DNA from: an uncultured Pelagibacteraceae bacterium
GTDB taxonomy: Bacteria; Pseudomonadota; Alphaproteobacteria; Pelagibacterales; Pelagibacteraceae
Direction of reading: 5' to 3'
NCBI GenBank assembly: GCA_902582345.1
Contig: CACHRU010000005.1
Coordinates: 1 to 64,000 of the forward strand
DNA length: 64,000 nucleotides
The stretch's first letter is position 1. The number at the start of each line of letters is the position of its first letter. The position numbers and the translations under genes are program-made. The notes below the pieces were generated by a model that worked only from the letters and a program-made list of their open reading frames with translations, had not been told where the DNA came from and made no database searches. This document shows positions 7,788 through 12,813 of the stretch, one piece after another.

Positions 7788-9161
7788 ATGATTAACAAAA
7801 AAAATATAAACAATATATTCATTTTATTTTTAACGTCTCATTTTTTAATTTGGATATTTGTACCATCAATCACAAATCTGAATTTACCATTAGATACTAT
7901 TGAAGCTTTAGCATGGGGAAGCAATCTAGACTGGGGTTTTAATAAACATCCCCCAATGAGCGCGTTTGCAATTGAATTGTTTTATTTCATTTTTGGAAGT
8001 CAAGATTGGGCTTATTACTTATTAAGCCAAATTTTTGTAATATTTTCTTTTATAATTGTTTGGAATTTTTCTAATCTTTTAACTAATAACAATCTATTAT
8101 GTGGTTTTGTATCAGTTATACTATTAGAAACAATTTTTTTTTATAATTTTACAACTCCAGAGTTTAATGTAAATGTGTGCCAATTGCCTTTTTGGGCCCT
8201 TACTGTGCTTTACGGTTGGAAAAGTTTTCAAGAAAAAAGAATTAAAAATTATTTTTTACTAGGTATTTTTGCTGCTTGTGGTTTTTTATCGAAATACTTA
8301 TTTTTATATCTTATTTTTTCTATATTTTTATTTTTTATTTTGATGATGATTAGAAATAAAAAAAACTTTTTAGTTTTATTAACGGCGCTACCCTTTGTAA
8401 TAATTATATCACCTCATATTTTTTGGCTATTTGATAATGAATTTATTACAATAACTTATGGACTGCAAAGAGCAGAAGCTAATGACGATATAATAATGAG
8501 CCATATTTATCATCCTTTGATTTTTTTATTAAAACAAATTGGAATTCTTATACCATTTATATTTGTGTGCTTTTTTATGTTCAAAAAAACTAATTTTAGA
8601 ATCAATATAAAAGATCAAAAATTACTTTATTTATTTTTTATAAATATTTTACCGGTAATGCTTATTTTAATTACCTCTTTAATTATGGGAGTCAAAATAA
8701 GAACGATGTGGATGACGCCTTTTTATTTATTCTTTGGTGTATTTTTTGTTTACATTTTTCAAAAAAAAATAAATGCGAATAATGTCCAAAAATTTTTAAA
8801 AGTTTTTATAGTCATTTTCCTAATTACACCTGTTACTTATTTTTATATTTCTGTAACTGAAACAAATAAAAGGACAGATTACCCAGGTAAGGAGATATCA
8901 AGACTTGTTCAAAATAAATGGGATAAAAATTTTAAAAATGATATTGGATTTGTTATTGGAGATGAGTGGTCAGCGGGAAATCTTTCTTATCATTTAAGAA
9001 GTAGGCCAAAATGGTATATTACTTTACCAGAGCAAAATATCGAAATGATGAAAAGTAGCGGAGTAATTTATACTGGAAACCCATCAATTCTTAAAAAGGT
9101 TTGTCCCGGAGTTTTTGGAACAATAAAACCAACCGGATATTGTATGATAGGCGCTAAATGA
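7788..9161 (+). CDS. GT39-family membrane glycosyltransferase (ArnT/PMT-like)
   Basis: A polytopic membrane protein of about 457 residues. The first periplasmic loop carries LPLDTIEALAWG and FNKHPP (D36, E39, H54-P-P), the signature of dolichyl-/undecaprenyl-phosphate-dependent glycosyltransferases of family GT39 (PMT_2, ArnT-like). About ten hydrophobic helices follow, then a C-terminal soluble part. Such enzymes transfer a sugar from a polyprenyl-phosphate donor to lipid or protein on the periplasmic face. A GTG 36 bases upstream extends the frame without similarity; the ATG at 7788 is preferred, and a TATAAT at 7773-7778 could give a nearly leaderless mRNA. It overlaps the next gene, a GT2 enzyme, by 4 bases. 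Acceptor unknown. Confidence 0.85.
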   Translation: MINKKNINNIFILFLTSHFLIWIFVPSITNLNLPLDTIEALAWGSNLDWGFNKHPPMSAFAIELFYFIFGSQDWAYYLLSQIFVIFSFIIVWNFSNLLTNNNLLCGFVSVILLETIFFYNFTTPEFNVNVCQLPFWALTVLYGWKSFQEKRIKNYFLLGIFAACGFLSKYLFLYLIFSIFLFFILMMIRNKKNFLVLLTALPFVIIISPHIFWLFDNEFITITYGLQRAEANDDIIMSHIYHPLIFLLKQIGILIPFIFVCFFMFKKTNFRINIKDQKLLYLFFINILPVMLILITSLIMGVKIRTMWMTPFYLFFGVFFVYIFQKKINANNVQKFLKVFIVIFLITPVTYFYISVTETNKRTDYPGKEISRLVQNKWDKNFKNDIGFVIGDEWSAGNLSYHLRSRPKWYITLPEQNIEMMKSSGVIYTGNPSILKKVCPGVFGTIKPTGYCMIGAK

Positions 9162-10033
9162 AAAAGTTCAAAATTTTAATTCCTGTATACAATGATTGGG
9201 AGTCTCTAGAAAAATTATTGAATGAACTGGATAAAATTATTCAAAATCTAAAAGGGGTGGAGTTTAGTGTACTAATCATAGATGACGCATCAACCGTAGA
9301 AAATAATATTTTTAAAGTTCCACAAAATTTTAAGTCAATTAAGATAATTAAAATGAAATTAAACCAAGGACATGCGAGATGTATCGCCTTTGGAATCAAG
9401 TATTTATCGGTTAATGATGATTTTGATTATACTATTTTAATGGATGGTGATGGTGAAGATCGACCAGAGGAAATTACTTCTTTAGTTCAAATGGCTTTAA
9501 AGCATCAGATTAAATCAGTTGTTGCAAGACGAATTAAAAGATCTGAAGGCGTAATATTTAGATCCATGTATGAAATTCATAAACTAATTACTTTCATTTT
9601 CACAGGTAAGAAAATTAATTTTGGGAATTATTCCTGTCTCACAAAAAAAGATTTAAAATTATTGTCTAATAAAAAAAGTCTGTGGAGTAGTTTTTCAGGT
9701 TCAGTTTCTAAACATCTAAATGAAACGTCTTCTATAAATTCAATCCGTGGCATAAGATATTTTGGACCTTCTAAAATGTCGCTCTATAAATTAATAATTC
9801 ATTCATTTTCTATAATTGCAGTTTTCAAAGAAAAAGTTTTTTTGAGATCAGTCATGTTAATTATTTTCCTTTCGTTTTTGAATTTTGAATTTAACAATAT
9901 ATTATTTCCTATAATCCAAATTTTTTTTGTTATTTTTTGCTTGGTAATCTTTGTTGTTTCAAGAAGAGAAAATTTATCAGCCTTAAACAATTCACCTCAA
10001 AACCAGAAGCAAATTTCTATCCACACACCCTAA
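9158..10033 (+). CDS. GT2-family glycosyltransferase with C-terminal membrane helices
   Basis: A 291-residue enzyme with a GT-A fold. ILIPVYNDW opens the protein, LIIDDAS (D42-D43) binds the nucleotide, and MDGDGEDRPEE (96-105) takes the place of the usual DAD metal motif. The last 65 or so residues include two hydrophobic helices. This looks like a polyprenyl-phosphate sugar synthase (DPM1/ArnC-like) or a related membrane-anchored transferase. It follows the GT39 gene with a 4-base overlap. A two-gene module is plausible, in which this protein loads a lipid carrier and GT39 uses it. Sugar and acceptor cannot be read from sequence. Confidence 0.82.
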   Translation: MKKFKILIPVYNDWESLEKLLNELDKIIQNLKGVEFSVLIIDDASTVENNIFKVPQNFKSIKIIKMKLNQGHARCIAFGIKYLSVNDDFDYTILMDGDGEDRPEEITSLVQMALKHQIKSVVARRIKRSEGVIFRSMYEIHKLITFIFTGKKINFGNYSCLTKKDLKLLSNKKSLWSSFSGSVSKHLNETSSINSIRGIRYFGPSKMSLYKLIIHSFSIIAVFKEKVFLRSVMLIIFLSFLNFEFNNILFPIIQIFFVIFCLVIFVVSRRENLSALNNSPQNQKQISIHTP

Positions 10034-10117
10034 TAGGTTGAATTAAGAGTCTAAATTAGAGTCAAAAAGGAATCAAAACGTGAACATTAGAAAGATATTT
10101 TGATACCTTGTGGATAC
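10017..10117. promoter_or_regulatory. Cluster of GANTC sites flanked by inverted DnaA-box-like sequences
   Basis: CTATCCACA at 10017-10025 (inside the 3' end of the GT2 gene) and TGTGGATAC at 10109-10117 are an inverted pair, each one mismatch from the DnaA box TTATCCACA. Between them lie three GANTC sites at 10047-10051, 10059-10063 and 10070-10074, the target of the alphaproteobacterial methylase CcrM. A very AT-rich stretch follows up to the next gene. The 119-base gap from 10034 to 10152 holds no gene that I can see. A role in replication or cell-cycle control is inference only. Confidence 0.4.
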
Positions 10118-10152
10118 TCTTCAAACCTATATATTTTGATATATAAAAAATT

Positions 10153-10515
10153 ATGAAAAAATTATCATGTCACTGCGGTGAAGTAAAAGCCGAAATTTTA
10201 ACAAAAGACAAATTTCAAAAGCTTCTAAGATGTAATTGCTCGATTTGTAAAAGAAAAGGGGCTGTTATGTCTATGGTTAAAAATGAGGATTTTAAGATTA
10301 TTAGCGGAATAGAGAAACTTTCAATTTATCAATTTCATTCAAAGGTTGCTAAGCATTACTTTTGCTCTATATGTGGAATTTATACCCATCACAATCCTAG
10401 GTCCAACCCTTCAATGACAGGATTTAATGTTGGATGTATAGATGACATTGACAGTTTAGAATCTAAAGAAATAAGTCTTATTGATGGAAAAAATCATCCG
10501 TTAGATAAAAAATGA
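10153..10515 (+). CDS. GFA family (DUF636) zinc-binding protein
   Basis: A 120-residue protein with the complete cysteine pattern of the GFA / glutathione-dependent formaldehyde-activating enzyme family: CHC at residues 6-8, CNCSIC at 27-32 and CSIC at 71-74. These bind two zinc ions. Named for S-(hydroxymethyl)glutathione synthase, most members have no proven activity, so a formaldehyde role is possible but not shown. In favour, SAR11 cells oxidise many one-carbon compounds. It overlaps the following kinase gene by 4 bases and is probably cotranscribed with it. Confidence 0.85.
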   Translation: MKKLSCHCGEVKAEILTKDKFQKLLRCNCSICKRKGAVMSMVKNEDFKIISGIEKLSIYQFHSKVAKHYFCSICGIYTHHNPRSNPSMTGFNVGCIDDIDSLESKEISLIDGKNHPLDKK

Positions 10516-12746: not shown

Positions 12747-12764
12747 GTTCTTGATAAAAAGAAC
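12747..12764. promoter_or_regulatory. Inverted repeat upstream of recA
   Basis: GTTCTT (12747-12752) and its complement AAGAAC (12759-12764) are separated by 6 bases, about 50 bases before the recA start. It could be an operator. The half-site spacing fits neither the alphaproteobacterial LexA box (GTTC-N7-GTTC) nor the E. coli or Bacillus type. A possible -10 (TATATT) lies at 12779-12784. Confidence 0.35.
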
Positions 12765-12813
12765 AAAATGTGTACATTTATATTATCGATTCGTAACAAA
12801 AAAAGGATAAAAA

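Follow-up and report, generated by a model that had tools for sequence, protein, structure and literature searches.

The DNA analysed here, hereafter the window, is a SAR11-like stretch of 64,000 nucleotides in which a rhodopsin gene (PF01036) lies amid AT-rich, densely packed genes. Between the genes for a family 2 glycosyltransferase and a GFA-family protein it carries a short element (Table 1) described in a first-pass annotation as three GANTC sites flanked by inverted DnaA-box-like sequences. The three sites are present, as are the flanking CTATCCACA and TGTGGATAC with their shared core TATCCACA. The left box shares bases with the final codons of the glycosyltransferase reading frame, and the remainder of the element is intergenic, as far as the GFA-family reading frame.

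Table 1. Features of the element and its neighbours (positions in the window)
Feature	Position	Strand	Remark
Upstream neighbour, glycosyltransferase family 2 protein	9158..10033	+	PF00535, E 3.8e-14
Left DnaA-like box CTATCCACA	10017..10025	+	mostly not conserved
Whole element, sequence-only model R1	10035..10121	+	E 1.5e-20; the window copy is itself among the model's 48 sequences
Rfam RF01827 match	10036-10126		46.4 bits, E 6e-7; gathering score 67
GTTGAA, conserved GTTGNA unit	10037..10042	+	offset -33 from the third GANTC
GANTC site 1, GAGTC	10047..10051	.	upstream GANTC at -23 or -22 in 75/77 copies
GANTC site 2, GAGTC here, usually GAATC	10059..10063	.	GA and TC in 48/48 copies
GANTC site 3, GAATC, element anchor	10070..10074	.	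core used for choosing copies
GAACAT, last array unit	10082..10087	+	12 bp after GANTC 3; within the core used for choosing copies
Right DnaA box TGTGGATAC	10109..10117	-	matches the reverse of TTATCCACA at 8/9; some 39 bp past GANTC 3
Downstream neighbour, GFA-family protein	10153..10515	+	PF04828, E 2.6e-14

Local and genome-wide site statistics

GANTC is depleted in the window (120 occurrences versus 179.6 expected from dinucleotide shuffles), and such depletion has been reported for CcrM-bearing Alphaproteobacteria (PMC3973325). When 120 sites are placed at random, a triple as tight as the observed one arises somewhere in 64 kb with P = 0.089, so the GANTC cluster by itself constitutes weak evidence. 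The core TATCCACA occurs four times in the window versus 1.4 expected, a count reached by 4 of 100 shuffles, and 18 times in the 978-kb assembly versus 26 for a reversed control pattern; it is therefore not enriched genome-wide. Only two of these 18 sites, at 10018 and 10109, lie within 100 bp of each other. Scanning 2.46 Mb of SAR11 DNA yielded nine tight GANTC triples, with about two expected by chance. Seven of them belong to the element, one being the window's own and four lying in stretches deliberately placed over it; since this placement biases the count, the fair statement is that only two other triples were seen.

Anatomy of the element

Copies of the element were compared in two sets. 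The first comprises 48 copies chosen by their match to the core, with neither the box nor the GTTG unit entering the choice; its percentages for the core are biased upward for this reason. The second comprises 77 copies selected with a pattern that excludes the box, after 3 of 80 had been dropped for having too little flank. All copies are related by descent, so that the counts below are not independent.

The element extends over about 84 bp and is made up of GTTG, GANTC, GANTC and GAATCAAAACGWGAACAT units at steps of 10-12 bp, followed by a DnaA box. Anchoring the 48 copies on the third GANTC, GTTG is found at offset -33 (G 96%, T 98%, T 92%, G 96%) and the first GANTC at -23 (88-92% per base). 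The second GANTC, at -11, keeps GA and TC in all 48 copies while its N is A in 41, G in 5 and T in 2; GAATC follows at offset 0 and GAACAT at +12. Near +39 stands a TGTGGATAA-type box, with a match of at least 8/9 in 38 of the 48 copies. In the larger set, 72 of 77 copies have a right box of this quality between +38 and +42, and in 64 it is perfect, where the background is 1.85e-4 per position; a good right box is absent from 10/48 and 5/77 copies of the two sets. A left box of at least 8/9 was detected in 10 of 77 copies (8 at -53 and 2 at -55). The inverted pair of the first-pass annotation is hence not a general feature, the left box being specific to the window copy and a minority of others; what relatives retain is the GANTC array and the right box.

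Perfect right boxes occur in five kinds of gene neighbourhood among the 48 copies. Next to the glycosyltransferase gene, 16 of 23 copies have a right box of at least 8/9 and 5 a perfect one; the corresponding figures are 14/14 and 13/14 for the umuD neighbourhood, and 6/6 and 5/6 for the neighbourhood with MFS and TENA-family genes. The one copy beside SDR and rhomboid-like genes and the one upstream of mraZ both have a perfect box; the right box is missing from the lone copies at typA, at dxs and at a GMC-type oxidoreductase gene. The strongest point in the analysis is this recurrence of a predicted DnaA box at the same spacing across differing gene neighbourhoods. Its relatives thus establish that the element is real, though the cluster alone is only mildly unusual.

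The N position is nearly fixed at GANTC sites 1 and 3 (site 3 falls within the selection pattern), so the whole sequence may be what is read and GANTC could be incidental. On that account the element would be a site for some nucleoid or segregation protein reading direct repeats of 11-12 bp, with GANTC incidental to the motif GAATCAAAA. The spacing of the units (10-12 bp), the almost invariant N at sites 1 and 3 and the conserved flanking A's all suit this explanation, which we nevertheless consider improbable: such a protein leaves the TTATCCACA box at its fixed spacing unexplained, and site 2 keeps GA and TC while N changes.

Several known motifs were also compared with the element and rejected. 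The SOS motif of alphaproteobacterial LexA is GAAC-N7-GAAC, and the last unit of the array resembles GAAC, but the full motif is absent from the element. Tandem weak DnaA boxes within the array fit HTCC1062-type copies in part and fail in the window's genus, and the likeness to parS goes no further than a half-site. A sequence of the form GWAC-N7-GWAC, GAACAAAATGTGTAC, was observed elsewhere in the window (12761-12775), upstream of recA; we take it to be a possible SOS box.

Taxonomic distribution

A sequence-only model built from the 48 copies (E <= 0.01) matches 148 of 198 genomes of the order, covering 6 of 9 genera. Among the matches listed, all fall in the window's family, with 1-3 copies per genome, and a second copy is present in 15 of the 20 listed from the window's genus. 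The genomes with no model match include 13 listed members of the family and 7 of a second family, together with 30 further misses. Searched at the DNA level, 52 of the genus's 61 genomes (counting the window's own) gave some match; the core is covered in about 50, and 2 match in the AT-rich tail only. The other two genomes of the genus that are at least 97% complete have two matches each.

A pattern scan of GTDB representatives identified at least 119 stretches, and the 80 record titles among the matches listed name Pelagibacter, Pelagibacteraceae, Pelagibacterales, Fonsibacter and, once, 'Alpha proteobacterium SCGC'; the distribution may reach beyond SAR11. Viral contigs gave no exact pattern match, and a phage origin was rejected on these grounds.

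DnaA, CcrM, GcrA and GANTC methylation

The proteins expected to act on such sites are encoded in the genomes concerned. DnaA is found in 12 of 12 genomes tested. The RAMA domain typical of CcrM is found in 13 of 13, the match in genome G066 being a 66-aa open frame with a stop, and among 14 controls only Caulobacter matches. GcrA is likewise present in 13 of 13 genomes, the matching controls being Caulobacter and, oddly, Sulfolobus, so that both genes needed for GcrA/CcrM control of promoters occur together. The search for ccrM that the first-pass annotation had put forward was thus positive, and the link it drew to DnaA and CcrM is made plausible by the conserved array, the predicted right box and these genes; the replication-origin part of the same claim finds no support, as detailed below.

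Published data concur on several of these points. In the accessible text of PMC3973325, SAR11 is stated to have a CcrM homologue and Rickettsiales to have none. Pelagibacter GANTC sites have been reported to be methylated at 71-95%, depending on the sample, and 42 sites, intergenic in two thirds of cases, lacked methylation in every sample (PMC9516812). For CtrA, the accessible part of PMC2877005 gives no orthologue in Pelagibacter.

Position relative to the replication origin

A DnaA box accompanied by GANTC sites could mark oriC, the origin of chromosome replication, or a portion of it, and the Caulobacter origin does contain GANTC motifs (PMC3973325). We estimated origins from GC skew sampled in 20 stretches of 20 kb in G089 and G063 and in 10 stretches in six other genomes, using two-state fits; skew follows gene strand strongly, so fitted origins are rough, within tens of kilobases. 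Fits were weak for G066 (r 0.67), G068 (0.58), G069 (0.65) and G064 (0.65), and G070 and G088 fell outside the sample.

In the four well-fitting genomes (r 0.78-0.88) over 100 kb separates the element from the fitted origin, with no skew switch at the element. The fitted origin and the copies fall, respectively, at 280-330 kb and at 39 and 622 kb in G089, at 1040-1090 kb and at 312 and 737 kb in G063, at 1070-1190 kb and at 94 and 136 kb in G073, and at 140-250 kb and at 382 kb in G071. Wherever the fit is good, the sampled skew sets the element away from both origin and terminus. The weak fits of G064 and G066 lean the other way, with one copy roughly 65-180 kb from the fitted origin. An oriC would be a single site, and complete genomes hold up to three copies, a second copy being common. 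Sampled skew and copy number both disfavour an origin of replication, and we regard the element as very unlikely to be oriC.

A rule relating the element to fork direction and terminus symmetry, whereby copies would point from origin to terminus at equal distance, was also discarded: it fitted G020 and G063 and failed for G089 (39 kb) and G073 (94 kb), as well as in the weakly fitted G064 (676 and 1194 kb). Neither position nor orientation relative to the forks is constant between copies. Separately, perfect TTATMCACA boxes number 11-28 per genome in the 10 complete genomes G063-G089, below the reversed control in 10/10, and their positions form no obvious origin-like cluster among the matches listed, which come from nine of these genomes, for G088 in part.

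RNA gene or DNA site

The sequence is already known: since 2009 it has carried the label of a candidate small RNA, as Rfam family RF01827, proposed by Meyer et al. (PMC2704228). The window stretch is homologous to this family at a score below its gathering threshold (Table 1), which relatives at loci L064 (111 bits) and L071 (91.3) exceed. The copy in the 1,308,759-bp genome G089 scores 111 bits and lies at 622433-622525, inside the intergenic region 622388-622552 of Meyer et al., who likewise noted a glycosyltransferase neighbour for their homologous SAR11_0636 sRNA (PMC2704228). They remarked on its variable neighbours, suggested a separately transcribed RNA and, in the accessible text, described the motif as less well supported, with a conserved stem lacking covariation (PMC2704228).

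Our own evaluation of RNA structure yielded conflicting statistics. RNAalifold, applied to the 48 copies, returned four never-varying pairs only (energy -0.46, covariation 0), which join GA/TC of the second GANTC with GA/TC of the third; GANTC is its own reverse complement, and any two copies can therefore pair. Imposing the Rfam structure pairs 71.4% of cells, versus 70.3% for shuffled data; of the inner hairpin's pairs, the two that vary are disrupted in 31/48 and 26/48 copies. Other counts on that structure favour an RNA: double-sided changes (42 versus 26.5) surpass all 500 shuffles, the covariation score is reached by 23/500 shuffles and the percentage paired by 21/500, and sliding the partners cuts pairing from 71.4% to 26.7-46.4%; kinship among copies, or a structure derived from one aligned sequence, can each produce such pairing statistics. 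Fold z-scores for seven sequences range from -1.92 to +1.02, the upper value belonging to the HTCC1062-type copy on the proposed strand, and the window copy has no terminator.

An RNA structure is therefore poorly supported, though some counts lean the opposite way, and a small RNA gene in the sense of RF01827 and Meyer et al. appears to us quite improbable. Rfam files the family as RNA, but its second copies, its DnaA box and GANTC array, and its weak covariation speak for DNA; the element is probably not an RNA gene and is better read as a DNA site.

Gene neighbourhoods and local regulation

A DNA site could also serve its neighbours, as a promoter or operator under DnaA and GcrA/CcrM control for the gene to its right (mostly of the GFA family) or for umuD to its left. 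The main rival to an output in replication or timing is that the element controls the genes beside it. The left gene in 80 scanned loci belongs to the umuD family in 52, where it is divergent from the element, and encodes an MFS transporter in 10 and a glycosyltransferase in 8; the umuD family corresponds to Peptidase_S24 and is found beside an impB/mucB/samB-type polymerase gene in L064. In 68 copies both neighbours are close and could be classified (12 of the 80 were unclassifiable for both), giving 49 divergent, 16 tandem and 3 convergent arrangements, and the right gene is transcribed away from the element in 65 of the 68. Beyond the box, 71 of 78 copies have the start codon of a reading frame of 80 aa or more, the median distance being 44 nt, and 31 of 48 copies have a GFA relative no further than 900 bp away. 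The proximity of start codon and GFA gene, and the outward direction of the right gene, keep neighbour regulation a serious rival. In Caulobacter, moreover, promoter GANTC sites recruit GcrA when methylated (PMC3973325).

Other features of the neighbourhoods fit such control less well. The adjacent right gene varies, comprising GFA-like groups of 23 and 12, cupin-like (9), TENA-family (9), SOUL (8) and glyoxalase-like (7) genes and singletons, with GFA, TENA and SOUL names resting on Pfam matches of single members and the other names assigned by eye. Convergent genes flank some copies, namely the 3 of 68 above and also L074, L080 and L081, so the element need not be a promoter. The window copy has no good promoter or terminator (one weak site versus 2.2 expected), and the conserved letters of a reverse-strand hexamer, T(A/T/G)CAAC, are not those that a -10 box would keep. 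Weighing both sides, we deem it unlikely, if still a live alternative, that regulation of adjacent genes is what the element is for. As an observation in its own right, loci L241-L320, where the left gene is mostly umuD (52/80) and the right gene variable, may mark a point of gene turnover beside the element.

A role as MraZ operator was rejected, since mraZ promoters carry a distinct set of 10-bp CCCA repeats outside the element, and among the mraZ regions inspected only those of G089, G069 and G073 contain the element. These repeats, of MraZ type, recur about every 10 bp just before mraZ in L154-L165, apart from the element. Six of these loci (L162, L163, L164, L159, L161 and L165) also contain a GWAC-N7-GWAC-like repeat in the interval from RNase P RNA to mraZ, some 100-180 bases ahead of the mraZ start, in the form GAAC-N7-GAAC in three genera and GTTC-N7-GTAC in the window's genus. 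The repeat lies ahead of the division genes (ftsZ, named by eye, comes after mraZ in L082) and resembles an alphaproteobacterial LexA (SOS) box.

Proposed function

The reading we put forward, tentatively and at somewhat less than even confidence, is that of a cis-acting site outside the origin at which DnaA and proteins sensitive to GANTC methylation would couple DnaA to local replication. Its direct supports are the conservation, anatomy and copy number of the element, its off-origin position in four genomes, the presence of the genes and the little or no RNA covariation. DnaA would bind the conserved TTATCCACA-type box, and a second protein, for which GcrA is the obvious candidate, would read the helically phased GTTG-GANTC-GANTC-GANTC-GAAC array. 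The adenines of the array would be open to methylation by CcrM, with methylation acting as the switch: passage of the fork would leave the three GANTC sites hemimethylated together until CcrM acts, and the element could in this way tie DnaA activity or binding to the replication of that part of the chromosome. Binding by DnaA and GcrA, an effect of methylation state and an output in replication or cell-cycle timing are what we infer from these features.

Few bacterial groups in the sea are as abundant as the SAR11 bacteria. Their cell-cycle wiring is little known: CtrA has not been found, yet genes for a CcrM-type methylase, GcrA and DnaA are present. If the proposal is true, a site joining DnaA and GANTC would provide a concrete, testable node of this wiring, and reading it as a DNA site would correct a curated RNA family, RF01827. 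A literature search, covering mostly sources other than subscription papers and preprints, found no publication proposing a DnaA/GANTC site reading in the text accessible to it.

Comparison with known systems

In its boldest form, the proposal makes the element a candidate site of DnaA control that lies away from oriC and is timed by methylation. Its three phased GANTC sites and single DnaA box would turn the passage of a fork into a signal carried by DnaA or GcrA, which would give SAR11, where CtrA has not been found, a counterpart of crtS or DARS based on CcrM; we hold this version to be doubtful. Like the SAR11 element, crtS of Vibrionaceae is a non-origin, family-conserved sequence in which a single putative DnaA box accompanies several GATC methylase sites, as described in the accessible part of PMC6090056. 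crtS triggers the second chromosome via RctB, and the SAR11 element differs from it in sequence, in methylase (CcrM, not Dam) and in hosts. Eight complete SAR11 genomes are single contigs of 1.16-1.46 Mb, and there is therefore no second chromosome to trigger.

DARS1, DARS2 and datA of E. coli possess several DnaA boxes and IHF/Fis sites, and stimulate ADP-ATP exchange or ATP hydrolysis on DnaA. They are intergenic sites outside the origin that act through DnaA (PMC6090056), to which the SAR11 element bears a likeness, but where these have multiple boxes it has one conserved box. The promoters controlled by GcrA and CcrM in Caulobacter have GANTC in the promoter region, as may the SAR11 element, and members of the GcrA and DnaA regulons are overrepresented among the genes that CcrM affects (PMC3973325). 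Unlike those promoters, the SAR11 element has no constant target gene, and it combines three phased sites with a DnaA box at a fixed distance.
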